From Nitrospirota bacterium (lineage in GTDB: Bacteria > JACPQY01), in NCBI GenBank assembly GCA_016180645.1, contig JACPAV010000015.1, positions 1 to 64,000 of the forward strand: a stretch of 64,000 nt of DNA, given 5' to 3'. Shown here piece by piece: positions 18,533 to 50,626 of the stretch; the first letter of the stretch is position 1; each line of letters starts with the position of its first letter. The position numbers were made by a program, and so were the translations under genes. The notes beneath the pieces are model-generated. The model was not told the origin of the DNA and searched no databases. It was given only the letters and a program-made list of their open reading frames with translations.

Positions 18533-19999
18533 GTGAATATCCGAACTCGATTCGCTCCCAGTCCGACGGGGTTCCTCCACATCGGAGGCGCCCGGACGGC
18601 CCTTTATAGTTGGCTGTTCGCGCGAAAGCATGGGGGAAAGTTCGTCCTTCGCATTGAGGATACGGACCGCGAGCGAAGCAAGCCGGAGTTTGAGCATGAC
18701 ATCATTGAGAGCCTCAAATGGCTCGGGCTCGATTGGGACGAGGGGCCGTTCCGCCAAACGGAGCGGTTCGATGTGTATCGTGAGTTTGCGAAAAAGCTGG
18801 AGCAGGCCGGTGCGTTGTACCGCTGCACCTGCTCCGCGGCTGAACTGGACGAGCGGCGCAAGCAGGCCATGAAAGAAGGACGGCCGCCGCAGTATGACGG
18901 CCGGTGCCGGTCTCGAACCGATCAGACCGACAAACCGTACGCGCTCCGGTTCAAGATGCCGAAAGAGGGAGAGACCGTCGTCAAAGATCTTGTGCTCGGA
19001 GAGGTGCGGTTTGCCAACAGGGAGCTTGAAGACCTGATCATCCTGAGAAGCAACGGTATCCCAACGTACAATTTCACCGTGGTGGTGGATGACGCCGAGC
19101 ACGGGATATCCCACGTGATCCGAGGAAACGATCATCTCAACAACACTCCGAAGCAGATCCACATGTTCAAGGCGCTCGGGCTGGAATCGCCGCAATTCGC
19201 CCATCTTCCGTTGATCCTGGGCACCGATCGTTCCCGGTTGTCGAAACGGCACGGGGCGGTTTCGGTTACGGCTTACAAGGAGGAGGGTTTTCTTCCCGAA
19301 CCGTTCCTGAATTTTCTGGCGCGGATCGGCTGGTCGCACGGCGATCAGGAAGAATTCACTCTGGAAGAGCTGAAGGAGAAGTTCGGCTTGGATGGAGTGG
19401 GAAAGACATCGGGAGCGTTCAACGAGGACAAGTTGATCTGGCTCAACTCCCAGTACATCAACCGGATGAACGGCTCCGTGGAGGGTAAAGAGAAGTTGCG
19501 AGCCGCCCTCCAGCCCTTTCTCGCCAAGGCGGTGGGGGAGGCGGGCAATCCGGCCGGAATCCCCGGAGATCAGGCGGCTTGGTGGACGCAGGCGCTTGGA
19601 GCCTTCGGTCAGAGAGCGGATACGCTGAAAGTCTTGGCCGACAGCATGGCGTTCCTCTTCCAGGAAGAAGTCCGGTGGGACGACAAGGCGAAGAAGAAGT
19701 TCCTTCAGCCGGGGGTGCTGGAGGTACTTGAGCGGCTATGCCGAAAATTGGATGAGATGGAATCCTTTTCCGACCTTGCGTTGTTGGAATCGCTCTTCAA
19801 AGGCATCTGTTCGGACAACGACCCGCCGCTTCAGATGGGCCAGCTTGCACAACCGGTCCGCGTGGCCCTCACGGGAAAATCCGTCAGCCCCGGCATCTTC
19901 GACGTCCTCCAGCTTCTCGGCAAGGAGAAATCCCTGGCCCGCCTCCGCGCCGCCCTCTCCGAAATCCGCGCGGGCGTTGCCGACCGCTCACTTGAATAG
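18533..19999 (+). CDS. gltX: Glutamyl-tRNA synthetase
   Basis: 488 residues from GTG 18533, normal length for bacterial GluRS. Class I signature FAPSPTGFLHIGGARTAL (HIGH as HIGG) at the N-terminus, FVLRIEDTDRERS, a cysteine cluster CTCSAAELDE...GRC that matches the zinc-binding region of some GluRS, and RLSKRHGAVSV as the KMSKS loop. The C-terminal anticodon-binding helical domain is complete. It charges tRNA-Glu (or tRNA-Gln as well if no GlnRS is present, which cannot be judged here). The transcript seems leaderless. Confidence 0.96.
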   Translation: MNIRTRFAPSPTGFLHIGGARTALYSWLFARKHGGKFVLRIEDTDRERSKPEFEHDIIESLKWLGLDWDEGPFRQTERFDVYREFAKKLEQAGALYRCTCSAAELDERRKQAMKEGRPPQYDGRCRSRTDQTDKPYALRFKMPKEGETVVKDLVLGEVRFANRELEDLIILRSNGIPTYNFTVVVDDAEHGISHVIRGNDHLNNTPKQIHMFKALGLESPQFAHLPLILGTDRSRLSKRHGAVSVTAYKEEGFLPEPFLNFLARIGWSHGDQEEFTLEELKEKFGLDGVGKTSGAFNEDKLIWLNSQYINRMNGSVEGKEKLRAALQPFLAKAVGEAGNPAGIPGDQAAWWTQALGAFGQRADTLKVLADSMAFLFQEEVRWDDKAKKKFLQPGVLEVLERLCRKLDEMESFSDLALLESLFKGICSDNDPPLQMGQLAQPVRVALTGKSVSPGIFDVLQLLGKEKSLARLRAALSEIRAGVADRSLE

Positions 20000-20022
20000 A
20001 GAGTCCGGCTCTGCGTTTGCAA

Positions 20023-20050
20023 TTGGAGGCCTGTGAAACGCTGGTATAAT
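20023..20050 (+). promoter_or_regulatory. Putative promoter of the radC-hsd operon
   Basis: Perfect TATAAT at 20045-20050 with a TG-G extension, and TTGGAG 16 bp upstream (20023-20028). Transcription would start about 7 nt before the radC ATG at 20065, leaving too little room for a Shine-Dalgarno sequence. This is the best sigma-70-type -10 box seen near here and would drive radC, hsdR and, by coupling, the restriction genes. Confidence 0.6.
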
Positions 20051-20064
20051 GCCCCCCAGCCAAA

Positions 20065-20757
20065 ATGGGAGCATCATCCAGTGTGGGCCATAGAAAGCGT
20101 CTTCGCCAACGCTTCCTCCGTGTCGGTTTGGCGGGCCTCGCCGACTATGAGTTGCTTGAACTGGTGCTCACCTTTGCGATTCCCCGACGGGATGTGAAGC
20201 CGACCGCGAAGGAGTTGCTTCACCGGTTCGGATCGCTGAAGTCCGTTCTCGACGCATCACCCGATCAATTGGCGGGAATAGAGGGAGTCGGTTCCAGAAC
20301 CGGAGACTACCTTCAGGTGCTTCGCGCCGCGATGCGCCGCTACCACGAGCTTGGAGTGGCGGAGAGCAAAGTGCTCAATTCGCCCAAGGCGGTACTTGAG
20401 CTTTGCCGGTCAAGCCTCGAAGCGGAAAAGAACGAAGTGTTTGAGGTCATCTATGTGTCTTCCAAGAATCGCTACCTTGGCACCGAACGATTTTCCGAGG
20501 GAACCATCGATCGGGCCACCGTCCACCCAAGGAGGATCTTGGAGAGCGCCTTTTCGAGAAAGGCCGCTGCCCTGATCCTGGTCCACAACCACCCGTCCGG
20601 CGATCCGGCGCCCTCCGAGGCGGACAAGCGGTTGACGAAAGCGGTCCTCGATGCGGCTGAGCCGATCGGATTGACCGTTCACGATCACCTCATTATCGGG
20701 AACGGACGCCATTTCAGTTTCCGCTCGGAAGGTCTTCTCGCGGAGATGCGCGGATGA
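20065..20757 (+). CDS. radC: RadC-family JAB/MPN domain protein
   Basis: 230 residues. N-terminal helix-hairpin-helix region (LADYELLELVLTFAIPRRDVKPTAKELL, then LAGIEGVGSRTGDYL) followed by the UPF0758/RadC JAMM metalloprotease-like domain with HNHPSGDPAPSEAD, the H-x-H-x10-D zinc motif, and HDHLIIGNG. RadC's biochemical role is unsettled; it is widespread on chromosomes and also in genomic islands. Its TGA overlaps the ATG of hsdR (ATGA), so the two are translationally coupled, an uncommon arrangement that ties RadC to the restriction operon. Confidence 0.93.
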   Translation: MGASSSVGHRKRLRQRFLRVGLAGLADYELLELVLTFAIPRRDVKPTAKELLHRFGSLKSVLDASPDQLAGIEGVGSRTGDYLQVLRAAMRRYHELGVAESKVLNSPKAVLELCRSSLEAEKNEVFEVIYVSSKNRYLGTERFSEGTIDRATVHPRRILESAFSRKAAALILVHNHPSGDPAPSEADKRLTKAVLDAAEPIGLTVHDHLIIGNGRHFSFRSEGLLAEMRG

Positions 20758-23153
20758 GCATGAGAGCCGTCGATTCGGAGGCCGACACCTGCCGGAAATA
20801 CATCGTCCCGAAACTTCACGACGCCGGATGGAACGACGATCTGATCAACGAACAGAGGACGATCACGGACGGGCGAATTGTGGTCGCGGGCGACAAGGTG
20901 CGGCGGAAGAAGTCGGGTCGGGTCGATTATCTCCTCCGCATTGCGCGTGATTTCTCAATGGCCGTCGTTGAGGCCAAAGCATCCTACAAAAAGCCGGCGG
21001 ACGGTCTTCAGCAGGCGAAGGACTACGCCCAAATGCTGGGTCTGAAGTTCGCCTTTTCCAGCAATGGACTGGGCATCGTTGAATTCGATTTCCTCACGGG
21101 CCAGATCGCGGAGCGGGCCGACTTCCCCTCGCCGACGGAACTGTGGACCCGACTGCGCAAGAGTCAGGGGCCGACGGACGACGCAGCCGCAACGCGGCTT
21201 CTAACTCCCGGATCGCGCGTTCAAGGCAAGCAGCCCCGATACTACCAGGAGATCGCGGTGAATCGGGTAGTGCAGGCGATGCTCCAAGGCCAACGTCGGG
21301 TCCTTCTCACCATGGCGACCGGCACGGGAAAAACCTTCGTGGCCTTCCAGATCATTTGGAAACTCTGGAACAGTCGATGGAATGCGCGGGGCGATCACCG
21401 AAAGCCGAGGGTCCTGTATCTCGCGGATCGGAATTTCCTCGTGGATGTGCCCAAAGACCGGGAGTTCGCGGTGTTCGAGGATGCTCGACACAAGATTGAA
21501 TCGGGACAGATCGTGAAATCCCGGGAAATCTACTTTGCGATCTACCAAGCCATCGCCCAAGACGAGCGTCGATCGGGACTATACAAGGAATTCACGCGAG
21601 ATTTCTTCGACCTGATCGTGGTTGACGAGTGCCACCGGGGCAGCGCAAAGGACGAAAGCAACTGGCGCGATATTCTTGAGCACTTCCAGCCGGCTTATCA
21701 GCTTGGAATGACCGCCACTCCGCTCCGGGACGACAACGTGGACACGTATGGATATTTCGAAAATCCGGTCTACACCTACAGCCTCAAACAGGGGATCGAG
21801 GACGGCTTTCTCGCCCCGTACAAGGTTCGACGCATCGTGACCACGGCGGACGCGGTCGGCTGGCGTCCCAAGCCCGGAGAGATCGACCGGGATGGTCGCC
21901 CGATCCCGGACCAAGTCTACCAGACCCCGGAATTCGATAGGCTCCTGGCTCTGAAGCCCCGAACGGAGGCCATCGCCCGCCATCTCACGGATCACCTCCG
22001 GCAGACCAATCGATACGACAAGACCATCGTGTTCTGTGTCGACCAGGAGCACGCGCTGGAAATGATGAAGGCACTGACCAATCTGAACGCCGATTTGGCG
22101 CAAAGGCACGCGGACTACGTTGTGCGAATTACGTCCGACGAGGAGGAAATCGGGCGGGGGCACCTGGATCGATTCAGCGACGTGGAGAAGACAACCCCCG
22201 TGATCGTTACCACTTCCAAATTACTCACCACGGGCGTGGACGTTCCGACGTGCAAGAACATCGTTATCGCCCGGGTCGTGAATTCCATGACCGAGTTCAA
22301 GCAAATCATCGGTCGGGGCACGCGGGTGCGGGACGACTATGGGAAGTACTACTTCACGATTCTTGACTATACGGGGAGCGCGACGCGGCTGTTTGCCGAC
22401 CCGGTTTTCGACGGTGAGCCGGCGCTGCTGACTGAAGAAGGGATCGATGGGCAGGGTCGGGTTACATCCCCGCCGCGTGAGCCGGAACCGGCAGAAGAGT
22501 ACGAATCCCGCGAATCACAAGATGAATTCGTGGATGACTCCCCAACCGACTGCTCCTTTCCGGGACCGGCCGGAGGGGAAAGGCGCAAGTTCCATGTGGA
22601 CCAGGGTTATGTTGAGATCGCAGCCGATGTGGCCTACGAGATGGACGAGCATGGAAATCAACTGAAGGCGACCAAGTACACCGACTACACGATGGAGCAG
22701 GTGAGGTCGATGTTTTCCAGCGCGGCGGAGCTTCGAAGCAAGTGGACCCGCGCGGAGGAGCGGTCGCGGATCATCGACGCGCTGGCGGAGCGCGGAATCA
22801 CAATCGAACGTCTGGCCGAGGTCGCGGGTCAGCACGACGCCGACCCGTTCGATCTGCTATGCAACGTAGCTTACAGCCTTCCACTCCGAAGTCGACGTGA
22901 GCGAGCGGAACAAGTGCGCAAAGGGAATACGGACTTCCTGGGTCGATACACTAAGGAAGCGAGAGAGATACTGAACCTGCTTCTGGACAAGTACATTGAG
23001 CACGGGGTAGCAGAATTCAGAATCCCGGACATCTTGAAAGTCTCGCCCCTTTCGAGCCATGGCAACATCATCGAAATCGCGGCGCGATTTGGGGGGACCG
23101 ACAAACTCCGCGAGGCGGTGGCCGAACTCCAGTCGCTCCTCTACGCCGCCTGA
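20754..23153 (+). CDS. hsdR: Type I restriction enzyme R subunit
   Basis: 799 residues, the length of EcoEI/EcoR124-relative HsdR proteins. N-terminal nuclease: GRVDYLLRI...MAVVEAKAS (PD-(D/E)xK with D and E-x-K). Then SF2 translocase: TMATGTGKTFVAF (Walker A), LIVVDECHRGSAKD (DEAD-like box), LGMTATPLRDDN (motif III), ITSDEE and MTEFKQIIGRGTRVRDDYGK (motif VI). The C-terminal ~170 residues match an EcoEI_R_C helical domain that binds the methyltransferase core. It cleaves unmethylated foreign DNA after translocation in complex with HsdM and HsdS. Confidence 0.95.
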   Translation: MSMRAVDSEADTCRKYIVPKLHDAGWNDDLINEQRTITDGRIVVAGDKVRRKKSGRVDYLLRIARDFSMAVVEAKASYKKPADGLQQAKDYAQMLGLKFAFSSNGLGIVEFDFLTGQIAERADFPSPTELWTRLRKSQGPTDDAAATRLLTPGSRVQGKQPRYYQEIAVNRVVQAMLQGQRRVLLTMATGTGKTFVAFQIIWKLWNSRWNARGDHRKPRVLYLADRNFLVDVPKDREFAVFEDARHKIESGQIVKSREIYFAIYQAIAQDERRSGLYKEFTRDFFDLIVVDECHRGSAKDESNWRDILEHFQPAYQLGMTATPLRDDNVDTYGYFENPVYTYSLKQGIEDGFLAPYKVRRIVTTADAVGWRPKPGEIDRDGRPIPDQVYQTPEFDRLLALKPRTEAIARHLTDHLRQTNRYDKTIVFCVDQEHALEMMKALTNLNADLAQRHADYVVRITSDEEEIGRGHLDRFSDVEKTTPVIVTTSKLLTTGVDVPTCKNIVIARVVNSMTEFKQIIGRGTRVRDDYGKYYFTILDYTGSATRLFADPVFDGEPALLTEEGIDGQGRVTSPPREPEPAEEYESRESQDEFVDDSPTDCSFPGPAGGERRKFHVDQGYVEIAADVAYEMDEHGNQLKATKYTDYTMEQVRSMFSSAAELRSKWTRAEERSRIIDALAERGITIERLAEVAGQHDADPFDLLCNVAYSLPLRSRRERAEQVRKGNTDFLGRYTKEAREILNLLLDKYIEHGVAEFRIPDILKVSPLSSHGNIIEIAARFGGTDKLREAVAELQSLLYAA

Positions 23154-23202
23154 GAAGAGTAATGCACACACCTTACATCTTGTGAAAGGTTCACGTTCAC
23201 TG

Positions 23203-24759
23203 ATGGGCAAACCGAGAGCGACACCTCCCACACCCGTCACCACAGCTCAGCAGCTTGCCTCCATCGTCAAGTCGGCGCGGGACATCATGCGCAAAGACAA
23301 GGGTCTCAACGGCGACCTGGACCGGCTGCCCATGCTCACGTGGATCATGTTCCTGAAATTCCTGGACGACAGCGAGCAGATCCGGGAGGCGGAGGCGAAA
23401 ATGGCGGGCAAACGTTTTCGCCCGGCCGTCGAGCCGCCGTACCGCTGGCGGGATTGGGCGGCCAGGGAAGACGGCGTCACCGGGCAGGAAATGATGGATT
23501 TCATCAACAACGAAGAGCCGATTCGACCCGATGGAACCCGAGGTCCGGGTTTGTTCGCGTATCTTCGCGGACTCCAGGGCGCCAACGGGGGCGACCGGCG
23601 GGACGTGATCGCGACGATCTTCCGCGGAGTGATCAACCGCATGATCAACGGCTATCTCCTTCGGGACATCCTGAACAAGGTGAATCAGATCCATTTCACC
23701 TCCAGCGAGGAAATGCACACTCTCAGTCGCCTGTACGAGTCCTTGCTCAAGGAGATGCGCGACGCGGCGGGCGATTCCGGCGAGTTCTACACTCCGAGGG
23801 CCGTGGTGAAATTCATCGTCCAGGCCGTGAATCCGCGGATGGGGGAGGTGGCGCTCGATCCGGCCGCAGGCACCGGCGGATTCCTCGTGGAATCCTTCGA
23901 GCATCTCAAGACGCAGTGCCGGAAAACGGAGGACTACCGGGTCCTCCAACGAGAAAGCATCTTCGGCATCGAAGCCAAGCCCCTGCCGTATCTGCTCTGC
24001 CAGATGAATCTGCTGCTGCACGGTCTGGAATATCCTCAAATCGACCCCCTGAACGCGCTCCGGTTCCCACTCAGAGAAATGGGGGATCGAGAACGAGTGG
24101 ACGTGATCGTGACGAATCCGCCGTTCGGTGGGGAGGAGGAAAAGGGCATTCTCTCGAACTTTCCGGAGGACCGGAAGACGAGCGAGACGGCGCTCTTGTT
24201 TCTCCAGCTCATCATGAGAAAACTTCGAAGATTGGGGACCGGCTTCAAGGGGGAGGGCGGACGATGCGGAATGATCGTTCCGAACGGGATCCTGTTCGGC
24301 GACGGCGTCTGCGCCCGGATCAAGGAGGAACTGCTCAAGGAGTTCAACCTTCACACGATTGTGCGCCTTCCAAACGGCGTCTTCGCGCCGTACACGAGCA
24401 TTCCCACGAACATTTTGTTTTTCGACCGTTCCGGGCCGACCGAGGATGTTTGGTACTACGAACATCCGCTGCCGGAAGGAAAGAAGAACTACACCAAGAC
24501 GCGGCCCATCCAGTTCGATGAGTTCAAGTCCTGCCTGGAGTGGTGGAGCAAGCGCGAGGAGAGCGACCGCGCATGGAAGGTGTCCGCCGACGAGATCCGA
24601 AAGACCGGATTCAACCTCGACCGAAAGAACCCCCGCGCCCGGCAGGACATCTCCCATCTTCCTCCCGAACAGATTGCCGAAAGCATCCTGGCCAAAGAAC
24701 ACCGCATCGTGCAGATCATGGCGAACATCAAAGGACTTCTCGGAAAACGCGAGGCATGA
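23203..24759 (+). CDS. hsdM: Type I restriction-modification M subunit (N6-adenine methyltransferase)
   Basis: 518 residues from ATG 23203, chosen because the upstream in-frame extension lies inside hsdR and is low-complexity. N-terminal HsdM helical domain (LASIVKSARDIMRKDKG; LTWIMFLKFLDDSEQ) followed by the N6_Mtase domain: LYESLLKEMRDAAGDSGEFYTPR, VALDPAAGTGGFL (motif I, SAM binding) and VDVIVTNPPFGGEEE (motif IV, NPPF catalytic). It methylates adenines at sites chosen by HsdS. It ends in a 4-bp ATGA overlap with hsdS, while the 49-bp gap from hsdR is the only break in the operon. Confidence 0.95.
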   Translation: MGKPRATPPTPVTTAQQLASIVKSARDIMRKDKGLNGDLDRLPMLTWIMFLKFLDDSEQIREAEAKMAGKRFRPAVEPPYRWRDWAAREDGVTGQEMMDFINNEEPIRPDGTRGPGLFAYLRGLQGANGGDRRDVIATIFRGVINRMINGYLLRDILNKVNQIHFTSSEEMHTLSRLYESLLKEMRDAAGDSGEFYTPRAVVKFIVQAVNPRMGEVALDPAAGTGGFLVESFEHLKTQCRKTEDYRVLQRESIFGIEAKPLPYLLCQMNLLLHGLEYPQIDPLNALRFPLREMGDRERVDVIVTNPPFGGEEEKGILSNFPEDRKTSETALLFLQLIMRKLRRLGTGFKGEGGRCGMIVPNGILFGDGVCARIKEELLKEFNLHTIVRLPNGVFAPYTSIPTNILFFDRSGPTEDVWYYEHPLPEGKKNYTKTRPIQFDEFKSCLEWWSKREESDRAWKVSADEIRKTGFNLDRKNPRARQDISHLPPEQIAESILAKEHRIVQIMANIKGLLGKREA

Positions 24760-25904
24760 GCGCGGAGTGGCCGGAGATCCCATTGGGGGAGGTTCTGCGA
24801 AGAAGCACGGAGACCATTTCACTACAGCCAGAGAGCGAGTATCGGGAAATTACCGTCAAACTTTGGGGAAAGGGTGTTTGCCAACGGGGGATTATTAGCG
24901 GAGCAAGGTTGGCCGGCGCACGCCGGTTCATCGCCAGAACAGGGCAGTTCATCTTTTCCCGAATCGATGCTCGAAATGGCGCACTCGGCGTCGTGCCGCC
25001 GGAGCTTGATGGCGCGGTGGTTACCAATGACTTTCCAGTGTTTGAGGTCGACCAAGATCATCTATCGACGGCATACATTGGGTGGATGTGTCGGACGGCC
25101 TGGTTTGTCGAGCAATGCCGACGGGCGAGTGAGGGGACAACCAACCGAGTGCGGTTGCAGGAAGACAAGCTCCTTTCCACCGAGATTCCGCTTCCGGCCT
25201 TGCCCGAGCAGCGGTGGATCGTGGCCCGCCTCGACGCCCTCGCCTCCCAAATCTCCGAAGCCCGGGGGCTCCGGCAGCAGGTGGCCGAAGAGGCGGAGGA
25301 GCTTTGCCGCTCAATCCTCAGCCACGACCCGGATGCGCATCAGACGCGCATGGCTGAGCTGGTGCGACTACGGCCCCCCGACGTAACGGTCAGACCGGAT
25401 GGAACGTATCGCTTTGCTGGTGTTTATTGCTTCGGGCGAGGTGTTTTTCCTGGAGGGTGGAAGTCCGGCTCGGAGTTCTCGTACAAGAAACTCACGAGAC
25501 TCAACGTGGGTGATTTCGTATATCCGAAACTGATGGCTTGGGAGGGGGCCTTGGGCATCGTCCCACCAGAATGTGAAGGCTGCGTCGTCTCCACGGAGTT
25601 TCCGGTGTTTGAGGTTCTTGAAGAGCGGGTCCTGCCGGTGGTCTTGGACACGTATTTCAGAACTCCATCCGTTTGGCCGAATCTCTCCGGCGCGAGTACC
25701 GGCACCAATGTGCGGCGCCGCCGCCTCAACCCGGCTGACTTCCTTGACTATTCGATTCCCCTCCCTTCACGGGGGACGCAAGAGCGCCTTCGTGAAGTAC
25801 GGAAGGGGGTCGATTCGCTCAAGCGCCTCCAATCCGAAACCGCCGCCGAGTTGGACGCCCTCCTCCCCTCCCTCCTCGACAAAGCCTTCAAGGGTGAACT
25901 ATAG
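24756..25904 (+). CDS. hsdS: Type I restriction specificity subunit
   Basis: 382 residues starting at the ATGA overlap with hsdM. Two half-repeats are visible. TRD1 (PEIPLGEVLRRS ... EIPLPALPEQRWIVARLD) is followed by a helical spacer (EARGLRQQVAEEAEELCRSIL). TRD2 (WPNLSGASTGTNVRRRRL ... YSIPLPSRGTQERLREV) leads to the conserved terminal helix AAELDALLPSLLDKAFKGEL. It sets the DNA target. The final 25 codons recur as diverged, orphan copies at 28008-28082 and 29855-29923, marking recombination events in this locus. Confidence 0.94.
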   Translation: MSAEWPEIPLGEVLRRSTETISLQPESEYREITVKLWGKGVCQRGIISGARLAGARRFIARTGQFIFSRIDARNGALGVVPPELDGAVVTNDFPVFEVDQDHLSTAYIGWMCRTAWFVEQCRRASEGTTNRVRLQEDKLLSTEIPLPALPEQRWIVARLDALASQISEARGLRQQVAEEAEELCRSILSHDPDAHQTRMAELVRLRPPDVTVRPDGTYRFAGVYCFGRGVFPGGWKSGSEFSYKKLTRLNVGDFVYPKLMAWEGALGIVPPECEGCVVSTEFPVFEVLEERVLPVVLDTYFRTPSVWPNLSGASTGTNVRRRRLNPADFLDYSIPLPSRGTQERLREVRKGVDSLKRLQSETAAELDALLPSLLDKAFKGEL

Positions 25905-25954
25905 AGAATCGATTCCCACCAATTGGATTCTGTGATACTTCGACTGGGTAGGCG

Positions 25955-27670
25955 ATGCTGACGAAACTTACGATCTCCAACTTCAAACTCTTCGACAGGG
26001 TGGAGATTGATCTTGCAGAACGGGTGGTCTTTGTCGGACCGAACAACGCCGGCAAGACCTCGGCGTTGCAGGCCCTCGCGCTTTGGAGCATCGGTCTGCG
26101 TCGCTGGGTGGAAAAGCGCGGACGAGGAAACGTTCCGAAGGAGCGCGCGGGTGTGACCATCAACCGGCGAGATCTCATTGCCCTTCCGGTCCCTTCCGCG
26201 AATCTCCTCTGGCGTGATCTTCATGTGCGCGAAAGCGTTCACGAGACGGAGAAGCCCAAAACACGCAACGTTCTGATCGAGATCAGCGTTGCAGGTGTGG
26301 ATGAAGGGAAGGAGTGGACGACGAGTTTCGAATTTGACTACGCGAACGAGGAGTCTTTCTATTGCCGATCGAAGCTGGGTCCGGGGGGATCCAGACTGGA
26401 GATATCGGAAGCGGCGGCAAACGTGGTCTTGGCGTACCTCCCGCCCATGTCAGGCCTGGCCTCCAACGAAACCCGGCTTGACGAAGGTGCAATCGCCGTC
26501 AGGATCGGGGAAGGAAGGACCGCGGAAGTCCTCAGGAACCTCTGCTGGCAGGCACTCCAGGGGAAAGGGGATCAATGGAGAAAGATTGTGGACAGGATGA
26601 AGGCTCTGTTCGGGGTCAGACTGGATGAACCGAAATACGTTAAGGAACGGGGTGAAGTAGTCATGTCTTTCGTAGGGCAAGGGGGAGTGCGTCTGGATTT
26701 GTCCTCCAGTGGTCGAGGCCAGCAACAGACGCTGCTTCTGCTCGCTCATATGGCGGCAAATCCTGGAGCGGTTCTCCTATTGGACGAGCCGGATGCCCAT
26801 CTTGAAATACTCCGGCAGCGTCAGATCTACCAAGTCCTGACGGATACGGCCGCGGAAACGGGCAGCCAAATAATCGCCGCCAGCCACTCGGAAGTCATCT
26901 TGAATGAAGCCGCGGACCGAGATTCTGTCGTCGCATTTGTGGGGGCCCCGCATCGAATCGACGGTCAGGGAAGTCAGGTTTTGAAGGCTCTGAAGGAAAT
27001 CGGCTTCGAGCAGTACGTTCAGGCCGAAGAGACCGGTTGGGTGCTCTACCTGGAAGGGTCTACGGATCTCGCCATTCTCCGCGCATTTGCGGCAAAGCTC
27101 ACTCACCCCGCCAGCGCGATGCTTGAGCGTCCGTTCGTTCACTATGTAGCGAATCAGCCGGGAAAGGCCCGGGACCATTTCTATGGTCTTCGTGAGGCAA
27201 AGCCCGATCTCGTCGGAATAGCATTATACGATCGATTGGATCAAACGCTCTCCAACGACCCCAACCTCGTCCAAACCCAGTGGCGCAGACGCGAGATCGA
27301 GAACTATCTTTGCCAACGCGACACCCTGCTGGCTTGGGCTGAAGCTCAGGGCCGGCCCCAAGGCGATCTGTTCGCGTCCGCTTGGCGATCAAGGATGAAC
27401 GAGTCCATTGATGAGATTGCCTCGGCACTGGCCGCGCTTCGCAAGCCGGCGCCGTGGAGTCCGGATATCAAAGCGAGTGACGACTTTCTTGACCCATTGT
27501 TCAAGAGATTTTACGAAGCTTTGAGCCTGCCCGGTCTCCTGAGGAAAACCGACTACCACACACTCGCGCCCTTCGTGCCCATTGACCAGATTGACAAGGA
27601 AGTTCGGGAAAAGCTCGATACTATTGTCGCGACCGCATTGATAGCTCACCCGCGTGGGGGTCCGGCATAG
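25955..27670 (+). CDS. OLD-like AAA ATPase with C-terminal Toprim domain (probable defence protein)
   Basis: 571 residues. SMC/RecF-type ATPase domain: VVFVGPNNAGKTSALQAL (Walker A, residues ~26-40), LSSSGRGQQQTLLLLAHM (signature), AVLLLDEPDAHLE (Walker B) and IIAASHSEVIL (switch His). Residues ~360-571 look like a Toprim nuclease: VLYLEGSTDLAILRAF gives the first acidic residue and VGIALYDRLDQ the acidic pair. This is the architecture of OLD-family proteins, including GajA of the Gabija system, but no UvrD-type GajB partner is adjacent. It starts 50 bp after hsdS and is the first of three cargo blocks. Antiphage function is inferred from family and location. Confidence 0.8.
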   Translation: MLTKLTISNFKLFDRVEIDLAERVVFVGPNNAGKTSALQALALWSIGLRRWVEKRGRGNVPKERAGVTINRRDLIALPVPSANLLWRDLHVRESVHETEKPKTRNVLIEISVAGVDEGKEWTTSFEFDYANEESFYCRSKLGPGGSRLEISEAAANVVLAYLPPMSGLASNETRLDEGAIAVRIGEGRTAEVLRNLCWQALQGKGDQWRKIVDRMKALFGVRLDEPKYVKERGEVVMSFVGQGGVRLDLSSSGRGQQQTLLLLAHMAANPGAVLLLDEPDAHLEILRQRQIYQVLTDTAAETGSQIIAASHSEVILNEAADRDSVVAFVGAPHRIDGQGSQVLKALKEIGFEQYVQAEETGWVLYLEGSTDLAILRAFAAKLTHPASAMLERPFVHYVANQPGKARDHFYGLREAKPDLVGIALYDRLDQTLSNDPNLVQTQWRRREIENYLCQRDTLLAWAEAQGRPQGDLFASAWRSRMNESIDEIASALAALRKPAPWSPDIKASDDFLDPLFKRFYEALSLPGLLRKTDYHTLAPFVPIDQIDKEVREKLDTIVATALIAHPRGGPA

Positions 27671-27763
27671 GCGACGCGGTTTAAGACTGGCCGCGAGCAA
27701 GACGTTTGGGGCTTCGCTGGCAGTAGATCCCGCAGGCGAAAAGGCACGGGCGAGAGGACAGGA

Positions 27764-27797
27764 AAAGAAAAAGCCCCGTGATTAACCGGCTCACGGG
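27764..27797 (-). terminator. Rho-independent terminator of the small RNA
   Basis: Perfect 7-bp stem CCCGTGA / TCACGGG (27775-27781 and 27791-27797) with a 9-nt loop. On the minus strand it is followed at once by a T-rich run (GGCTTTTTCTTTTCC). On the plus strand there is no T-run, so it works only for leftward transcription. Confidence 0.72.
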
Positions 27798-27857
27798 ACC
27801 AGAAGCCATGTCCAGCGCCATGAGGCGTGGAGTAGCTGCTTGGTTTCCCAAGCATCA
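27765..27857 (-). ncRNA. Candidate small RNA in the defence island
   Basis: A ~93-nt transcript is predicted between a good minus-strand promoter (27863-27891) and a terminator (27764-27797). Reading 5' to 3' on the minus strand it has three stem-loops. The first is a perfect 6-bp stem closed by a GAAA tetraloop (27838-27853). The second is an 8-bp stem with one bulge, TCCA-CGCC / GGCG-x-TGGA (27811-27831). The third is the terminator. No open reading frame of note lies inside and no gene follows on that strand, so it is not a leader. Its 5' region does not match any RNA family I know. It could be a regulator of the flanking defence genes, an RNA antitoxin or an antisense RNA to the 3' end of the upstream AAA/Toprim mRNA. 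Confidence 0.6.
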
Positions 27858-27862
27858 GTACC

Positions 27863-27891
27863 ATCCTAAATGAATTGTCATGACATGTCAA
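27863..27891 (-). promoter_or_regulatory. Promoter and palindromic operator of the small RNA
   Basis: On the minus strand: TTGACA (consensus -35, 27886-27891), 17-bp spacer, TAGGAT (-10, 27863-27868). Two overlapping perfect 10-bp palindromes, TGTCATGACA (27877-27886) and TGACATGTCA (27881-27890), cover the -35 box and spacer and look like a repressor site. Confidence 0.62.
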
Positions 27892-28007
27892 TCATTTCCG
27901 GTCATTTACCGTCATCGCATGCCGGCATGTACCGTGATTGTTTGGGAATCGCAAGCATGACGGGAAGTTCCAGACGGGAACGTAGCACGTGAGGCAGTGG
28001 AATACCT

Positions 28008-28082
28008 CAATCGGAAATCGCAGCCGAACTCGACGCCCTCCTTCCCTCCCTCCTCGACAAAGCCTTCAAAGGTGAATTATAG
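28008..28082 (+). pseudogene. Orphan hsdS 3' end (copy 2)
   Basis: 25 codons reading QSEIAAELDALLPSLLDKAF then KGEL and TAG, one residue different from the end of the intact HsdS (25830-25904). At the DNA level 9 of 75 bases differ and eight of those changes are silent, so this is the tail of a different hsdS allele and not a recent duplication. Nothing HsdS-like lies upstream of it. The next gene starts 9 bp after its stop. The remaining DNA from 27671 to 28007 holds the small-RNA gene and otherwise no gene that I can see. Confidence 0.88.
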
Positions 28083-28091
28083 TTTGGTGAA

Positions 28092-29246
28092 ATGAGATTC
28101 ACGGCGCTTCAAATCGGGAACTGGCGAAACTTTGAGAAGGCGGAAGTCGAGCTTCAGGACCGCGTGTTCCTGGAGGGGCCGAACGCCTCCGGAAAATCCA
28201 ATCTTCTCGACGTGTTTCGATTTCTGCATGATGTGGTGGCGGTGGGCGGCGGTTTTCAAGAAGCGGTGAGGCGGCGTGGCGGAGTGTCAAGCTTGAGATC
28301 GCTGGCTGCCAGGCGTTACTCGGACATTGTGATCAAGGCATCCCTGGGAACTGACCGGGACAGAACCGCCTGGGAGTACGAGGTGTGCTTTAATCAGGAC
28401 AATACGGCTCAGCCCGGTACCCCTCGGCCACTGATCAAGAAGGAAACGGTGACGCATCACGGCAAAATTCTGCGGAATCGACCCGACGAATCGGACGCTC
28501 AGGACCCGGAGCGACTGACCCAGACGTATCTTGAGCAGGTTCATGCCAACAAAGACTTCCGGGAAGTAGCCGAGTTTTTCAGCACTGTTCGCTACCTGCA
28601 CATCGTTCCCCAATTGGTCCGTGACCCGGATCGTTCGAAGGGAATGAAAGACGACCCCTACGGAGGTGATTTCATCGAACAGATCGCCCGAACTCAGAAA
28701 CGAACTCGCGAAGCATGGCTCCGGCGCATCCAAGACGCATTGCGCGTCGCGGTGCCGCAACTTAAGGAGTTGACACTCCAGCAGGACTCTCGGGGCGTTC
28801 CGCATCTCCAAGGCAGATACGAGCACTGGCGCCCACAGGGCGCGTGGCAGACGGAAGAGTTGTTCTCTGATGGCACATTGAGGCTCATGGGCCTGCTGTG
28901 GGCCGCTTTGGACGGCAGCGGACCTTTGTTGCTGGAAGAACCTGAAATCTCACTCCATCCTGAGGTCGTCCGATACATTCCACAGATGTTTTTCCGACTA
29001 CAGCGAAAATCCGGACGGCAATTTGTCGTAAGTACGCATTCACTCGAGGTGGTGGGAGACGAGGGTGTCGGTGTGGACGAGGTTCTGCTTCTTCAGCCCG
29101 GATCAGAGGGAACGGTCTTGCTCCCGGCGAGTCGCCTGAAAGATGTCAAGTCGCTCCTCGAAGGCGGACTCTCATTGGCCGAGGCAGTGATGCCTCACAC
29201 ACGCCCTGAAAGAGCGGAGCAGCTCCCTCTTCTTGCCGACGAATAA
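28092..29246 (+). CDS. RecF/SMC-like AAA ATPase (AAA_21 type)
   Basis: 384 residues. VFLEGPNASGKSNLLDVF (Walker A, residues ~26-43), a long middle insertion, LFSDGTLRLMGLLWA (signature region), GPLLLEEPEISLHPEVV (Walker B with catalytic Glu) and FVVSTHSLEVV (switch His). This is the ATPase type that pairs with small nuclease-like partners in anti-phage modules. The next gene, a DUF4276-like protein, starts 9 bp downstream from a TTG, so they form a two-gene unit bounded on both sides by orphan hsdS tails. The defence role is inferred. Confidence 0.83.
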   Translation: MRFTALQIGNWRNFEKAEVELQDRVFLEGPNASGKSNLLDVFRFLHDVVAVGGGFQEAVRRRGGVSSLRSLAARRYSDIVIKASLGTDRDRTAWEYEVCFNQDNTAQPGTPRPLIKKETVTHHGKILRNRPDESDAQDPERLTQTYLEQVHANKDFREVAEFFSTVRYLHIVPQLVRDPDRSKGMKDDPYGGDFIEQIARTQKRTREAWLRRIQDALRVAVPQLKELTLQQDSRGVPHLQGRYEHWRPQGAWQTEELFSDGTLRLMGLLWAALDGSGPLLLEEPEISLHPEVVRYIPQMFFRLQRKSGRQFVVSTHSLEVVGDEGVGVDEVLLLQPGSEGTVLLPASRLKDVKSLLEGGLSLAEAVMPHTRPERAEQLPLLADE

Positions 29247-29255
29247 CCTTCTCCC

Positions 29256-29858
29256 TTGCCGGTCGTTTTCTCAGGTGCAGTAGAAGGTGTGTTGGACGAA
29301 GCGGTTCTCCGCCGACTTCTCCTGCATATCGGGGCAGGAATTGGACCCATCCATCGAAGGAACGGCAAGGACTCATTGAGACGCAGGGTATCCGCCTTCA
29401 ACAATGCCGCACGGCACTCCCCCTGGATCGTAGTCGTAGACCTGAACCATGAGGCGCACTGCGCTCCGCCGCTGCGAGCATCTTGGCTGCCAAGCCCGGC
29501 TCCAGGAATGTGTTTCCGTGTCGCCGTTCGAGAAATCGAGTCCTGGATCATGGCGGACCGAGCAAGGCTCGCCCGTTACTTGCGGGTCCAGCAGGCTCGG
29601 GTTCCCTCGGACCCGGAGGCGCTCGATGATCCAAAAACAGCGCTGGTTAACCTGGCTCGTACTTCGACCAAGAAAGCCGTCCGGGAAGACATGGTTCCGA
29701 GGCTGGGAAGCGGCAGGAAGATCGGTCCCGCCTATACATCTCGACTGATCGAATTCGTGTCGGACCAGGAACGCGGATGGCGCCCGGACGTGGCAGCGGC
29801 GGGGTCCGACAGCCTGGGAAGATGTCTCAGGTCACTCAGGAATCTTGTCCATTCGTGA
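29256..29858 (+). CDS. DUF4276-like protein, Toprim-like partner of the AAA ATPase
   Basis: 200 residues from TTG 29256. The pattern VFSGAVEGVLDEAVLRRLL at the start (the position of G-E-G-x-T-E in relatives), SPWIVVVDLNHEA (acidic strand end) and CFRVAVREIESWIMADRARLARYL in the centre matches DUF4276 proteins, which share the Toprim-like layout of conserved acids. The usual GEGxTE is altered to AVEGVLDE, so activity may differ. A basic C-terminal region follows. It most likely acts with the preceding ATPase as an effector subunit. Its stop codon overlaps the third hsdS tail by 4 bp. Confidence 0.65.
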   Translation: MPVVFSGAVEGVLDEAVLRRLLLHIGAGIGPIHRRNGKDSLRRRVSAFNNAARHSPWIVVVDLNHEAHCAPPLRASWLPSPAPGMCFRVAVREIESWIMADRARLARYLRVQQARVPSDPEALDDPKTALVNLARTSTKKAVREDMVPRLGSGRKIGPAYTSRLIEFVSDQERGWRPDVAAAGSDSLGRCLRSLRNLVHS

Positions 29859-29923
29859 TCGCCGCCGAACTGGACGCCCTCCTCCCCACCCTCCTCGACA
29901 AGGCCTTCCGGGGTGAATTGTGA
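29855..29923 (+). pseudogene. Orphan hsdS 3' end (copy 3)
   Basis: 23 codons reading VIAAELDALLPTLLDKAFRG then EL and TGA. It is a third version of the conserved HsdS terminal helix, with Thr and Arg replacements and a TGA instead of TAG stop. It abuts the end of the DUF4276-like gene and precedes the next cargo gene by 29 bp. Confidence 0.86.
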
Positions 29924-29952
29924 TTCTCGAGTCCGTCCGCTAGGATGACCCG

Positions 29953-30705
29953 GTGGCAGTCGAAAGAGAAATCTTCCCCAATGCGCCGATTACAGAAGCA
30001 CTGCTGGATGTTCGCGCCAATCTGCCGACCGGCACATCCATCGAGACTCTCGCCGCCTATCACGATTCCATCAGGGCCCGTTACCCGCTCAAACGGGAAA
30101 GGCAGCGGTGGCAAGTCGGTCATGAATTCAGGCCTGCCGGCCCGCCTTCAATTTTGGGGCCGACGGGGGGGCCGGACGGCTACATCTTTGAATCTCAGGA
30201 CAAGAAACAGGCGGTTCAGGCGCGATTGGATGGTTTCACGTTCAACAGGCTGAAACCGTATCATCAATGGGAATCGCTTCGGGAGGAGGCGATGGATCTC
30301 TGGGGTCAATATGTAGAACTTGCGAAACCCACTGCGATCACGCGGCTTGCGCTACGGTACATCAATCGGATCGAAATTCCCTTGCCCGCAGTTGATCTGA
30401 AAGAATACATCCTTACCGGGCCGGAAGTGGCAAGAGGATTGCCTCAGGGGTTGGCCAATTTCTTCATGCGCGTAATGATCCCCAGCCCGGATTCGAGGGC
30501 GACGGCCCTGGTAACGCTGACGATGGAAGTCCCGACAACGGTGGAAGGTCCTTTGCCTTTCATTTTCGATATCGACGTTTTCCATGAGGAGTCCATGGTA
30601 CCGGGAAGCGGTGGAATGCCGAAAGTGCTTGAAAATCTTCACGAATTCAAGAATAATATCTTCTTCGGAAGCATTACGGATAAGTGCAAGAAGCTTTTTA
30701 GATGA
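29953..30705 (+). CDS. TIGR04255-family protein
   Basis: 250 residues from GTG 29953. The opening EIFPNAPITEALLDVRANLP, the middle TRLALRYINRIEIP and the ending LENLHEFKNNIFFGSITDKCKKLF are the conserved blocks of TIGR04255, a family of unknown function frequent in genomic islands. The family often pairs with small hypothetical partners, as here: the next gene begins within its stop codon (ATGA). I cannot assign an activity. Position behind an orphan hsdS tail suggests an island-borne, possibly defensive or stress-related unit. Confidence 0.72.
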   Translation: MAVEREIFPNAPITEALLDVRANLPTGTSIETLAAYHDSIRARYPLKRERQRWQVGHEFRPAGPPSILGPTGGPDGYIFESQDKKQAVQARLDGFTFNRLKPYHQWESLREEAMDLWGQYVELAKPTAITRLALRYINRIEIPLPAVDLKEYILTGPEVARGLPQGLANFFMRVMIPSPDSRATALVTLTMEVPTTVEGPLPFIFDIDVFHEESMVPGSGGMPKVLENLHEFKNNIFFGSITDKCKKLFR

Positions 30706-31187
30706 ACCTGCAGATTGTGGATTCCTCAGGCCACGCTGGGCGTTCTTGGTACGCCCAACCTCCACATGCCATTCTTGTCCATGATTTCTACAATGCCGGC
30801 GGCGCCACCAGCCTCGAGGCGGGGGCCGTCTCTCTGGCCTTGGAGAGAATCGTCGAACACTATGCCGAACCCATTACGAGGAAGCAGAATCCGATTGAGC
30901 AGCGGTTCCGAACCCTTGCCTCAAAATGGAAAGCTGAGACGAAACATCTCTCCTTCATTTCGGCCATGGCTGTTCATCCAGCTTATCAAGGCATAATCGG
31001 CATGGGACCCGCCGTGGTTCCGTACTTGCTGGATGAGTTGGCCCGAGAGCCTGATCACTGGTTTTGGGCGCTCCGGTCCATCACTGGAGTCGATCCCGTT
31101 CCCCCATCCATGCGCGGGCGAGTCCGGGAGATGGCGGCTGCCTGGCTCGATTGGGGCAAACTTCAGGGATATGGCCAGCCGAGGTGA
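30702..31187 (+). CDS. Conserved hypothetical protein of the TIGR04255 unit
   Basis: 161 residues. The C-terminal ~85 residues are a recognisable conserved block: RFRTLASKWKAETKHLSF, then MAVHPAYQGIIGMGPAVVPYLLDEL and DHWFWALRSITGVDPVPP. The block recurs in small proteins of unknown function, where it precedes a DUF7689-type protein exactly as here. The helical GMGPAVVPYLLDELAREPDHWFWAL segment resembles a single HEAT-like hairpin. The N-terminal half is unassigned. Overlaps both neighbours (4 and 17 bp). Confidence 0.68.
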   Translation: MNLQIVDSSGHAGRSWYAQPPHAILVHDFYNAGGATSLEAGAVSLALERIVEHYAEPITRKQNPIEQRFRTLASKWKAETKHLSFISAMAVHPAYQGIIGMGPAVVPYLLDELAREPDHWFWALRSITGVDPVPPSMRGRVREMAAAWLDWGKLQGYGQPR

Positions 31188-31608
31188 CATCGAACAAATC
31201 TTTCCACGCCTGAGGTCCTCCCGGTACGACGTAACGAGTCCGAGGACGATTGAATACAACTGCGTTGCGTGGGCCGCGGGAGACACTCAGCGACGCTGGG
31301 ACCCCGACCCAGATTACTATTGGCCTGAGGGAATTCCGAGGGAATCAACCCTCGTTGCAGTCCAAGCCGTCTTCCTGAATTTGGGGTTTGAAGCCTGTGA
31401 GTCCCCCGACCTGGAATCGGGCTTCGACAAAGTCGCCATCTTCTCCATGCCTCCAAGAATTCCCACCCATGTGGCACGGCAATTGCCCAATGGGAACTGG
31501 ACAAGCAAGTTGGGGGATCTCGAGGACATTGAACATGAATTGAACGGCGTGGAGGGTGAAGAGTACGGGTCAATTAGCCTCATTCTGAAGCGGCCGAAAT
31601 CCAAGTAG
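31171..31608 (+). CDS. DUF7689-like protein
   Basis: 145 residues from ATG 31171, the start that leaves a 17-bp overlap with the previous gene and removes an implausible 46-residue extension. Conserved features: YNCVAWAAGDTQRRWDPDPDYYWPEG with a Cys and a downstream His/Asn pattern that hints at a papain-like or NlpC-like fold, then FDKVAIFSMPPRIPTHVARQL and WTSKLGDLEDIEHELNGVEGEEYG. The invariant-looking NC-x-AWA and TH-x-ARQ could form a Cys-His pair, but this is inference. Last gene of the three-gene unit, converging on mfd. Confidence 0.68.
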   Translation: MASRGDIEQIFPRLRSSRYDVTSPRTIEYNCVAWAAGDTQRRWDPDPDYYWPEGIPRESTLVAVQAVFLNLGFEACESPDLESGFDKVAIFSMPPRIPTHVARQLPNGNWTSKLGDLEDIEHELNGVEGEEYGSISLILKRPKSK

Positions 31609-31715
31609 TTTCCCACTCCCGCCCCTCCTGGCTGTAGCGGCATGAGGCATCGCATGGCGCAGCCGATCGGGCGATGGACTAGCCGAAGCTGTCGCGGTAC
31701 GGGTGACGGGTGGAG

Positions 31716-34700
31716 TCAGTTTTCAGGGGCTGGAGGTTTTTCCGGGAGGAGAGTCCGTCTAATGTTCTTGAGGATTTCGGCGGCTGACTCAGCGGGTTGT
31801 TTGCCTTTGGGAAGCGAAGTGACGAGTTCCAAGGGCGGGGCAAGCTTGAACTCCGCAGGCCGGCTCCGGACCAGTCGAACAAGGCTGTCGGGCGGAACCG
31901 GCGAGGTCGGATCAAAATGCAATGTAAGCGTTGATCCCTTCACCACGAGGCGGACGATTCCGAGACGCTTGAGTTCCAGGCGAAGAATCAGCTCATGAAA
32001 GAATCGCGTCGTGTCCTCCGGGAGGGAGCCGAAGCGGTCGATCATCTCCGACCGGATTTCGTCGAGGACCGACTCGTCCCCGGCCCGGGCGCATTTCCGA
32101 TAGAAGTAGATTCGAAGAGGCATATCCTCCACGTAAAATTCCGGGATGGAGCCGCGGTGGGGCAGGCGGATCTCCGGCTCCATTTCGGGCGTCGTGGGCT
32201 GACCCTTCAGCTCCCGCACGGCCTCCTCGATCAGGCGCAGGTAGGTGTGGAATCCCATTCGGGCGATATGGCCTGACTGGTTCTTCCCCAGGACGTCCCC
32301 CCCCCCGCGGATTTCGAGGTCCCGCTTGGCGAGCCGGTATCCCGATCCGAGGCCGCTCTCCTGAACGGCCTCCAGCCGTTTCACGGCTTCGGGTGTCATC
32401 TGGCCCTCGGGAACGATCAAGTAGGCCTTCGCCTGGATGCCGGAACGGCCGACGCGGCCCCGGAGTTGATAGAGCTGGGCGAGACCGAAGTGATCGGCGT
32501 CGAAAACGATGATCGTGTTGGCATTCGGGATATCGAGGCCCGCCTCGATGATCGACGTGGAGAGGAGCACGTCGATGTCTTTCCGAACGAAATCCATCAG
32601 GACTTTTTCCAGTTCGTCCTCCTTCATTTTTCCGTGGGCCACGCCCAGGCGGGCGGAAGGAACCAGCTTTTCCAGATATTCCGCCGTGGCCCAGATGCCT
32701 CGGATGCGCGGGTGGACGCAGAAGACCTGTCCTTCGCGGTCGAGTTCCTCCTCGATCGCGTGGCGGAGGATGGAATCGTCGTGCGGAGCCACGTAGGTCA
32801 TGATGTCTTTCCGCTCCTGGGGCGGTGTGGCGATGGTGGTGAGGTCGCGAATGCCCAGGAGGGCGAGGTGGAGCGTTCGGGGAATCGGCGTGGCGGTCAG
32901 CGTGAGCACGTCGACCTTCTCGCGGATTTTCTTGATTTTCTCCTTGTGGAGCACGCCGAACCGGTGCTCTTCGTCCACGACGAGCAGGCCCAGATCCGGA
33001 AAGGCGATGTCCGCGCTCAGGAGGCGGTGCGTGCCGATGACCATGTCCACCGCCCCTCCGGAGATCTCGCGAACAATGCGTTTCTGCTCCGCCGGAGGTA
33101 CGAATCGGGACAGCATGCGCACCTTGAGCGGGTAGTCCTTGAGGCGTCGCTCGAACGTTTGGAAATGCTGATAGGCGAGGAGGGTGGTGGGCACGAGAAC
33201 GGCCACTTGTTTCCCGTTCATGGCGACATGGAATGCGGCCCGCAAGGCCACTTCGGTCTTGCCGTAGCCTACGTCGCCGCAAACCAGCCGATCCATGGGT
33301 TGTTGGCGGGATAAGTCCTGGTAGACGGCTTCAATGGCTTCTCTCTGATCCGGTGTTTCCTCGTGCGGGAAGGCGGCCTCGAATTCGCGGAGGTAGTCGT
33401 CGGGGGGCGGGAAGGCGTGGCCGGGGAGACTCTCACGCCGGGCGTAGAGAGCGGCCAGTTCCTTGGCGAGGGCCTTCACCTCTTCTTTAAGTTTCTCTTT
33501 CGAGTTGCGCCAGAACGCGGTGCCGAGCCGGTCCAACTTCGGGGTGATCCCCTCGGAGCCTACGTATTTCTCAAGGAGGCTGATCCGGTCCACCGGCAGG
33601 TAGACGATCGCTTCTTCCGCATACTCGATCTTCAGGTACTGAGCTTCCACGCCGTGGATCGTCAATTCGGCGGCGCCGCGAAAGAGGCCGACTCCGTAGT
33701 CCACGTGGACGACAAAGTCGCCCTCTCGCAGGTCTTCGACGGAGATCTCTTCCCGGGGCTTCTTCGACTTGACCTGTTTTAGTCTCGGTACTGGTGCGCC
33801 GAAGACTTCGTGGTCGGGCACCAAGGCGAGGCGAGCCTCTTCCCAGATGAAGCCTTCGTGGAGGCGACGTCGGATCAGGGTGACGGATGCGGGCTCTTCA
33901 CCGGGGCCGGTCAGGGTGGGCAGAACCTCGAAGGGAATCGATTCCCGCGCGAGGATGCTGCGGAGCCTTTCCTCGCGGGCGTCGTCTTCGACGAAGAAAA
34001 CGCATCGCGTTCCGGAGGCGAGAAGATCCCGGACAAATGGGCCAATGGGGTTCGTGGTCCCTTCCGCTCTGCTCCACGGACGATCCCCTTCGCTACGCTT
34101 CGGGGACGACGACAGGAATCGACAAGAGATCTTCGCGTCGCGAGTTGAGGAATCATGAGGCCTCTGCGTCGTTCCTGCCGGTGAAGCGATCCGGGTCCTG
34201 AACGTTTCGACGGCGTGGCGAAGTTCCAGAAGATCCGAGCAGGTGGTGTGCCACTCGCGGCCCGGATCGGCTCCCGGCCTCAGAACTCGCAGGGGTTCAA
34301 AAATCAGCCGGGTGAATCGGTGGAGGGGCTTGTCCAAATCATTTCCGCGCAATTCGTCTTGCTGTGCATCCTCCCCTGCGCTCCGCTTCGGGGACGACGA
34401 ATGGAATGGCCATGAATGAGTTGCGTCGAATCCATCGATCAGCAGCAGCGTGTTCCCCGGAAGGAGATCCACCACGCGCGCTCCGGCGGGGGATTCCTCG
34501 ACTTGCGGTGGGAAGAGGCTGACCTCATCGAGCTTGCGGATGGATCTCTGAGTTTCCGAGTCGAATTCGCGGAGATCGTCCACGGCGTCGCCCGCCAGTT
34601 CGACCCGGACCGGCTGTGAGGAGAGCGGGGGAAAGATATCCACGACGAACCCGCGAACCGCGTAGTCACCACGACGCTCCACGAGCGTTTTCCGGACATA

Positions 34701-35189: not shown

Positions 35190-35196
35190 GCGCGGG

Positions 35197-35202
35197 ATTG
35201 TA
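35197..35202 (-). promoter_or_regulatory. Putative -10 box of mfd
   Basis: TACAAT seven bases before the chosen mfd ATG; no good -35 box is visible. If used, the mRNA would begin at or next to the start codon, as for gltX and radC. Confidence 0.35.
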
Positions 35203-35253
35203 TCGGAGCGGATCGAAGAAACCAGAGGCGGCGGATCCTCACACATTCGTGAC

Positions 35254-50146: not shown

Positions 50147-50179
50147 GAATACGGATGAGCGGTCAGGCCGCCCCCGAGG

Positions 50180-50299
50180 CTAGGACCCCGATGCTTCCTT
50201 GCGCTGACGCTCGTACTGGTGGCCCATGATGAACGCAAAAACGAGGATGCCGGCCATGACCGCCAGAAACACATATCCAACGATTTCCGCGTTGCTCAT
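50180..50299 (-). CDS. Small membrane protein, 39 residues
   Basis: Reads MSNAEIVGYVFLAVMAGILV then FAFIMGHQYERQRKEASGS: one membrane helix followed by a basic cytoplasmic tail. Its ATG overlaps the stop of the upstream 68-72-residue gene (ATGA), which strongly suggests translational coupling and a real gene. Nothing similar is recognised. The N-out/C-in layout with a short charged tail resembles small bitopic regulatory subunits. Confidence 0.6.
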   Translation of the reverse strand: MSNAEIVGYVFLAVMAGILVFAFIMGHQYERQRKEASGS

Positions 50300-50502: not shown

Positions 50503-50626
50503 CAAGCCGTTCATACGCCTCTTTCACCACCTACTCAAGTATCTTCTTGGCGGCCAGTTCGCCCGCCTCCTACCATCAGAAACTTGCCTCCCTCACTTTG
50601 GCCGTGCCAAGGGGAGAAAACGGTCG

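Follow-up and report, generated by a model that had tools for sequence, protein, structure and literature searches.

Repeated hsdS 3' ends border cargo genes behind a type I restriction-modification operon and in same-strand arrays of other genomes

We studied a type I restriction-modification locus within 64,000 nt of Nitrospirota bacterium DNA (assembly GCA_016180645.1, contig JACPAV010000015.1, positions 1 to 64,000), a stretch referred to as the window in the following. The genes hsdR, hsdM and hsdS of this locus all carry their family-specific domains, as is characteristic of type I systems. The 3' end of the specificity gene hsdS (its tail) recurs twice downstream of the intact gene, each time in front of further genes. 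We call such downstream genes cargo and tail copies outside of an hsdS gene orphans. All features are listed in Table 1.

Based on a repeat search, the tails form one direct-repeat family with three copies of 75 nt. When the window is scanned without gaps using copy 1, the numbers of matching positions at copies 1, 2 and 3 are 75/75, 66/75 and 60/75, i.e., copy 2 is 88% and copy 3 is 80% identical to copy 1. Elsewhere in the window, the same scan yields at most 37/75 matches on the forward and 38/75 on the reverse strand (mean 19.5, standard deviation 4.1). A chance origin of the repeat is thus excluded, and the three hsdS 3' ends reported by the initial annotation (one within the gene, two orphans) are real. 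The left edge of copy 3 abuts the stop codon of the HEC-01B gene. No additional hsdS remnants were found 5' of copies 2 and 3, and no tail copies were found in the remainder of the 4.7-Mb genome.

It had also been claimed that the copies differ mainly at silent positions. This is secure for copy 2: of its 9 changes relative to copy 1, 8 are synonymous and 1 is non-synonymous (P ~1e-4 against neutral change), such that the two diverged inside working hsdS genes. The claim is weaker for copy 3, where 5 synonymous and 4 non-synonymous changes (P ~0.05) give a less clear signal of such a history.

Table 1. Features of the restriction locus, its tail copies and its cargo in the window.
Feature	Position	Strand	Evidence and remarks
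tail copy 1	25830..25904	+	final 24 codons + stop of intact hsdS
orphan tail copy 2	28008..28082	+	repeat search; upstream open frame just 5 codons
orphan tail copy 3	29858..29923	+	recognisable homology from ~29858; repeat call spans 29849-29923
radC-like gene	20065..20757	+	Pfam RadC 5e-40; first gene of 11.7-kb island
hsdR, EcoAI-type	20754..23153	+	NF046051 1029.8 bits (cut-off 550)
hsdM	23059..24759	+	N6_Mtase 2.5e-64; PADLOC MTase_I 1e-191
hsdS open frame, intact	24540..25904	+	PADLOC Specificity_I 1.1e-85, residues 76-452; true start inside frame
cargo 1, AAA_21/AAA_15 ATPase, OLD/AriA/GajA-like	25955..27670	+	Pfam AAA_21 3.7e-20; PADLOC NsnB/AriA/GajA-level matches
cargo 2a, HEC-01A AAA ATPase	28092..29246	+	PDLC04180 1.9e-156
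cargo 2b, HEC-01B	29256..29858	+	PDLC04194 2.4e-61
cargo 3a, TIGR04255-family protein	29953..30705	+	NCBIfam TIGR04255 3.4e-41; GTG start
cargo 3b, small protein	30702..31187	+	open reading frame; 4-nt overlap with cargo 3a
cargo 3c, DUF7689 protein	31033..31608	+	PF24738 2.7e-38, residues 67-185; start probably near 31174

Next, we searched for orphan tails in other genomes. The searches used a profile of the window's hsdS type, and the genomes, one per species, are mostly metagenome assemblies. Scanning 84,980 species provided 80 loci. For 15/80, the retrieved tail has fewer than 100 open codons upstream, which is too high as a count of orphans since five of these tails (L020, L022, L047, L052, L066) follow a broken hsdS. 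Orphan tails directly in front of cargo are present in several phyla, i.e., the initial expectation that they occur next to cargo elsewhere is borne out in many genomes. Within one Anaerolineales family, the tail is present in 46/152 species; only about 15 of its roughly 150 tails lie in open frames of at least 385 residues, such that orphans outnumber intact hsdS by about 10:1. Since this tail type was found in only 6/386 genomes of a broad sample, the phenomenon is patchy and not universal.

Arrays reach nine tails in Anaerolineales, and Chloroflexi loci show up to eight tails within a few kilobases. No intact hsdS lies in the stretch read at 27/40 Anaerolineales array loci, some of which reach the end of their contig; the arrays seem to persist, or spread, in the absence of the restriction system. 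Growth of the locus behind hsdS, as originally proposed, therefore describes part of the data: arrays do stand behind hsdS, but exchange is not confined to a live hsdS end. The array loci considered here include L158-L173 and L198-L216. Phages, plasmids and viral contigs were considered as carriers and rejected, given that the tail search returned no phage record, three plasmids (one unannotated, two matching within annotated specificity genes) and four viral contigs. A literature search restricted to open-licence papers found no description of repeated hsdS 3' ends bounding cargo.

The anatomy of the tails is highly regular. Using a DNA profile built from intact hsdS only, we count 157 tails on the array strand and 0 on the opposite one. 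The left edge of orphans is ragged: counted from the end of the stop codon, it lies 13-311 bp upstream (median 88, interquartile range 50-106). The right edge is the hsdS stop codon, i.e., for 90% of the orphans the match to the best intact hsdS ends at most 4 bp past the stop. We also divided the hsdS genes of 18 loci with intact hsdS into 75-nt windows. The last two show 46 and 26 extra copies, and a single extra copy is found in total across the fourteen others. Thus, only the final ~150 bp of hsdS are repeated. As a control, we looked at 151 other gene ends, of which 9 are present in an additional copy; repeat proteins account for several of these.

The cargo consists mostly of single unrelated genes. 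Among 86 sampled proteins, which include those of the window, we find 67 Pfam families, most of them once; they comprise TIR, PIN, HEPN, Schlafen AlbA, RelA/SpoT and pentapeptide repeats, and a few of the sampled proteins are PADLOC candidates. Some cassettes are short, non-coding and contain hairpins. With regard to translation, the cargo start codon overlaps the hsdS stop codon (ATGA or GTGA) for 21/142 orphans compared to 40/744 random points (P = 2e-4), and 141/154 orphan tails carry a ribosome-binding motif, a by-product of their Lys-Gly-Glu codons. Substitutions private to single orphans show no bias among codon positions (76/100/97, P = 0.15), from which we conclude that orphan tails are not maintained as proteins. 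For several of them the open frame upstream spans just 5-9 codons, and a role as expressed small proteins is not supported.

Two further observations concern these cassettes and tails. At six loci (L077, L082, L087, L089, L157, L161), short cassettes recur which are non-coding and contain strong hairpins (agaccctaaagg...cctttagggtct; ccccctctgtcc...ggggg). The same loci show a unit of 65-75 nt that contains cacgaat repeatedly and in some cases runs in frame into the tail. Three tails (L082:10632, L089:6604, L169:7713) have their two halves parted by a short insert with CGCCGAAGGCGGACG-like palindromic sequence, which looks as though small palindromes enter the patch.

Tails recombine internally. 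In array L077, the first and second half of the tail occur in two forms each, and all four combinations are present. When tails preceding the same cassette in different genomes are paired, their first halves are no more alike than those of other pairs, and the excess likeness does not reach 0.25 before the last three bases. That is, identical cargo is found behind different tail haplotypes with just the last codon and the stop remaining linked, which implies that crossovers occur within the tail and that only its very end travels with the cargo. The proposal that cargo was acquired together with a piece of hsdS serving as homology patch is supported in this respect, but cargo is not bound to one tail allele.

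Comparisons of relatives locate the breakpoints. In Methanoperedens, one genome (G553) reads hsdS-tail-Z, and another (G103) has a different hsdS with its tail, followed by cargo Y, an orphan tail and Z. The orphan tail peptide of G103 equals the hsdS tail peptide of G553, and Z is 94% identical between both. The junction from Y to the orphan tail is common to further genomes, and no two of the four genomes compared agree in the sequence past this tail. Two Anaerolineales genomes (G540 and G502) have flanks of 94% identity, where the left match runs into the first tail and the right match resumes directly behind half a tail. Between the flanks, the contents are unrelated apart from a tail stretch; no intact hsdS was found in the 16 kb read at both loci, and the G540 cargo is also part of the nine-tail array of G505. 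Furthermore, a 434-residue cargo protein is common to G112 and G107 along with the preceding tail, with sharing beginning 11 bp before the tail. All three comparisons agree with the prediction of the initial annotation that breakpoints in relatives fall at the tails. Finally, the same downstream block, be it cargo genes or non-coding sequence, can follow an intact hsdS in one genome and an orphan tail in a second; at least six such blocks were found.

We consider it probable that the hsdS 3' end is a homology patch used for the insertion of cassettes behind the restriction operon and for their exchange between genomes. The patch would comprise the conserved final ~150 bp of the gene, with the highest similarity in the terminal 75 bp, and a cassette would be cargo flanked by tail sequence. 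A single crossover between the incoming tail piece and the resident tail would restore the hsdS frame and place the new cargo right after its stop codon, such that the former downstream gene would be pushed away behind a tail piece of mixed origin. The orphan would inherit its ragged left edge from the incoming piece, its right edge would be fixed at the hsdS stop, and repeated rounds would result in hsdS-tail-cargo-tail-cargo arrays. Such a scheme would account for the fixed right and ragged left edges, the mosaic tails and the Methanoperedens orphan tail with its shared left and different right side. The exchange itself may be ordinary homologous recombination (RecA type) via linear donor DNA or small circles. 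General homologous recombination is favoured since no tyrosine recombinase (Phage_integrase) was found within 40 kb of the arrays in 10/11 genomes, serine recombinases not having been searched. The retained tail end with its ribosome-binding motif may also aid translation of the cargo.

Several points weigh against this scheme. The hsdS recognition domains also differ between G553 and G103, and thus a replacement of hsdS together with Y is indistinguishable from an insertion of Y plus a separate hsdS exchange. Shared cargo can also differ in its ragged right junction (L161 vs. L209), for which later deletions or independent captures are needed. Homology does not explain how the first cargo-tail junction of each cassette came about, which must have been through an illegitimate join. 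An integrase-family gene lies ~8 kb before the array in G103 (L227; G103:C5:278627-279163), the sole case in 11 genomes. For the window's own array, no pair of close strains shows the state before and after an insertion.

An alternative which we regard as unlikely is that the tails are relics of tandem hsdS genes. Each cargo would once have stood behind a complete hsdS, whose body was deleted in place without any exchange of tails, and the tails would be retained since the following gene relies on their ribosome-binding site. The broken hsdS before the five tails named above and before L054:435 fits this, as does the ribosome-binding motif, though the latter is largely dictated by the codons. 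Differences of the common type among orphans are mostly in third positions, which indicates that the tails came from functional hsdS genes and likewise speaks for relics. On the other hand, only the last ~150 bp are found, the other hsdS windows being absent in 18 loci save for one copy. The differences between relatives comprise entire blocks that begin and end at tails, each of four genomes continues differently past the same Y-tail unit, and identical cargo stands behind different tail haplotypes. Based on these window, block, haplotype and Y-tail comparisons, the relic explanation is already strained.

The tail might instead be an attachment site, at which a recombinase encoded elsewhere excises and inserts cassettes as in integrons. 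We hold this to be improbable, in spite of the very regular one-strand arrays of diverse, mostly single-gene cassettes and of the resemblance between hsdS-less arrays and integron-less attC clusters. Private substitutions also become rarer along the 45-nt core, from ~0.1 per site at its 5' end to ~0.02 near the stop. On the other hand, exchange tracts vary in place along the tail instead of sharing a single short core, left edges are ragged, tail haplotypes vary at third codon positions, and tyrosine recombinases are missing beside the arrays in 10/11 genomes as reported above. It also seems unlikely to us that the arrays constitute a dedicated integron-like capture system of this kind with the hsdS-less arrays as mobile reservoirs of defence genes. 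An artefact of assembly or binning, i.e., contigs misjoined at repeated tails, is hardly credible. Most genomes are metagenome-assembled and several arrays stop at contig ends, but arrays are also found within long contigs (4.4 Mb for G543:C1, 4.7 Mb for G502:C1), the Y-tail junction recurs across independent assemblies, two genomes (G497 and G498) carry the same array at 99.9% identity, and the window's three copies are located in one 120-kb contig.

Among known systems, the homology-patch scheme comes closest to the displacement of C-terminal tips in Rhs proteins, which leaves orphan Rhs and CdiA tips and for which circular intermediates have been proposed (Jackson et al. 2009, PMC2935791). 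In both cases, displaced units form an array 3' of an intact, conserved gene, and a short piece of that gene's conserved part, of variable length (here 13-311 bp), precedes each of these orphan units. Relatives with hsdS-tail-Z and hsdS-tail-Y-tail-Z show a downstream unit displaced by a new one. Architecture and proposed insertion step thus correspond point for point. The anchor differs: it is hsdS, a restriction specificity subunit, and not a member of the rhs family. Rhs exchanges its own C-terminal domain along with the following genes, whereas the HsdS protein ends with the tail, hsdS keeps its full sequence and separate, very diverse genes are exchanged. By analogy, the arrays would be like Rhs tip displacement with free-standing genes.

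In integrons, too, a recurring element separates highly diverse cassettes, most of which hold a single gene and all of which are arrayed on the same strand, and integron arrays detached from their founding locus exist. All of this is shared by the hsdS-tail arrays. In contrast to integrons, the latter have no adjacent integrase (10/11 genomes), their recurring element lies within a coding gene, their junctions are ragged and their crossovers are not at one fixed base. Accessory genes are found within type I operons, e.g., prrC with EcoprrI, which likewise places defence cargo next to hsdS; we know of no repeated hsdS tails bounding such genes. The Kobayashi group reportedly described the insertion of restriction-modification genes with long target duplication, where a duplicated gene piece also flanks the inserted DNA. 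Copies generated this way should begin identical, while the common differences observed here correspond to those between distinct functional alleles of hsdS (in the window, 8 silent changes against 1 replacement). Finally, shuffling or inverting type I loci recombine between repeated conserved parts of hsdS (PMC7394358, PMC4948785). There, inverted repeats between whole or silent hsdS copies change the recognition domains, and a recombinase is part of the system; here, direct repeats of the 3' end only are present and downstream genes are affected. Opposite-strand hsdS tail copies were found neither in the window nor at the other loci. The survey of PMC7394358 sought inverted repeats only.

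Judged from their sequence, the three blocks of the window (AAA/OLD-like gene; HEC-01 pair; TIGR04255-unknown-DUF7689 trio) have the anatomy of hsdS-tail arrays. Since both components are matched in PADLOC, cargo 2 qualifies as HEC-01 defence candidate; the ATG of HEC-01A is located 9 nt past the stop of orphan tail copy 2. The gene calls of the initial annotation mostly hold, except that the small partner of the AAA gene, labelled DUF4276-like, has no respective Pfam match and is HEC-01B according to PADLOC. For cargo 3b, no family was matched in the Pfam, PADLOC and NCBIfam scans. An ATG at 29945 is in another frame than cargo 3a. No Rfam RNA or tRNA target was found near the locus. HEC-01A is not always found behind hsdS, as its homologues in four tail-bearing genomes (L237-L240; 47-56% identity) have no hsdS tail in the ~4 kb fetched around each.

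No near relative has this locus. The family comprises just one further genome (G001), in which the genes flanking the block lie only ~180 bp apart. They match 18533-19999 and the long gene at 31716-35246 of the window, which from the impression of its sequence, rather than a family-library run, we take to be mfd. The entire radC-hsdRMS-cargo stretch (20000-31715) is missing from G001, such that these 11.7 kb are an island gained in the window's lineage or lost in G001. As the block is missing as a whole, the window's array may have come ready-made instead of growing stepwise; the stepwise order of events in the window is inferred.

The arrays bear on how defence genes gather into islands without a transposase or integrase of their own. 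The short conserved end of a common restriction gene as docking point would be a concrete and testable route, in which docking leaves restriction intact and the docked gene lines up behind hsdS. It would also provide a search rule for unknown defence-like genes, i.e., to look behind hsdS tails. Tail arrays could be read as a record of past insertions, and the repeated tails would explain broken assemblies at such loci.

Outside of the island, a short palindromic element, TCCCCT.CGCT.CGCTTCGGGGACGACG, occurs twice in the window (34084-34140 and 34372-34428). Very similar short palindromes are found inside Anaerolineales hsdS tail remnants, e.g., 5' of L080:11489 and L080:12974. Long open frames with many diverged internal repeats, i.e., repeat proteins, are located at 48000-56200 and near 59200-60422.

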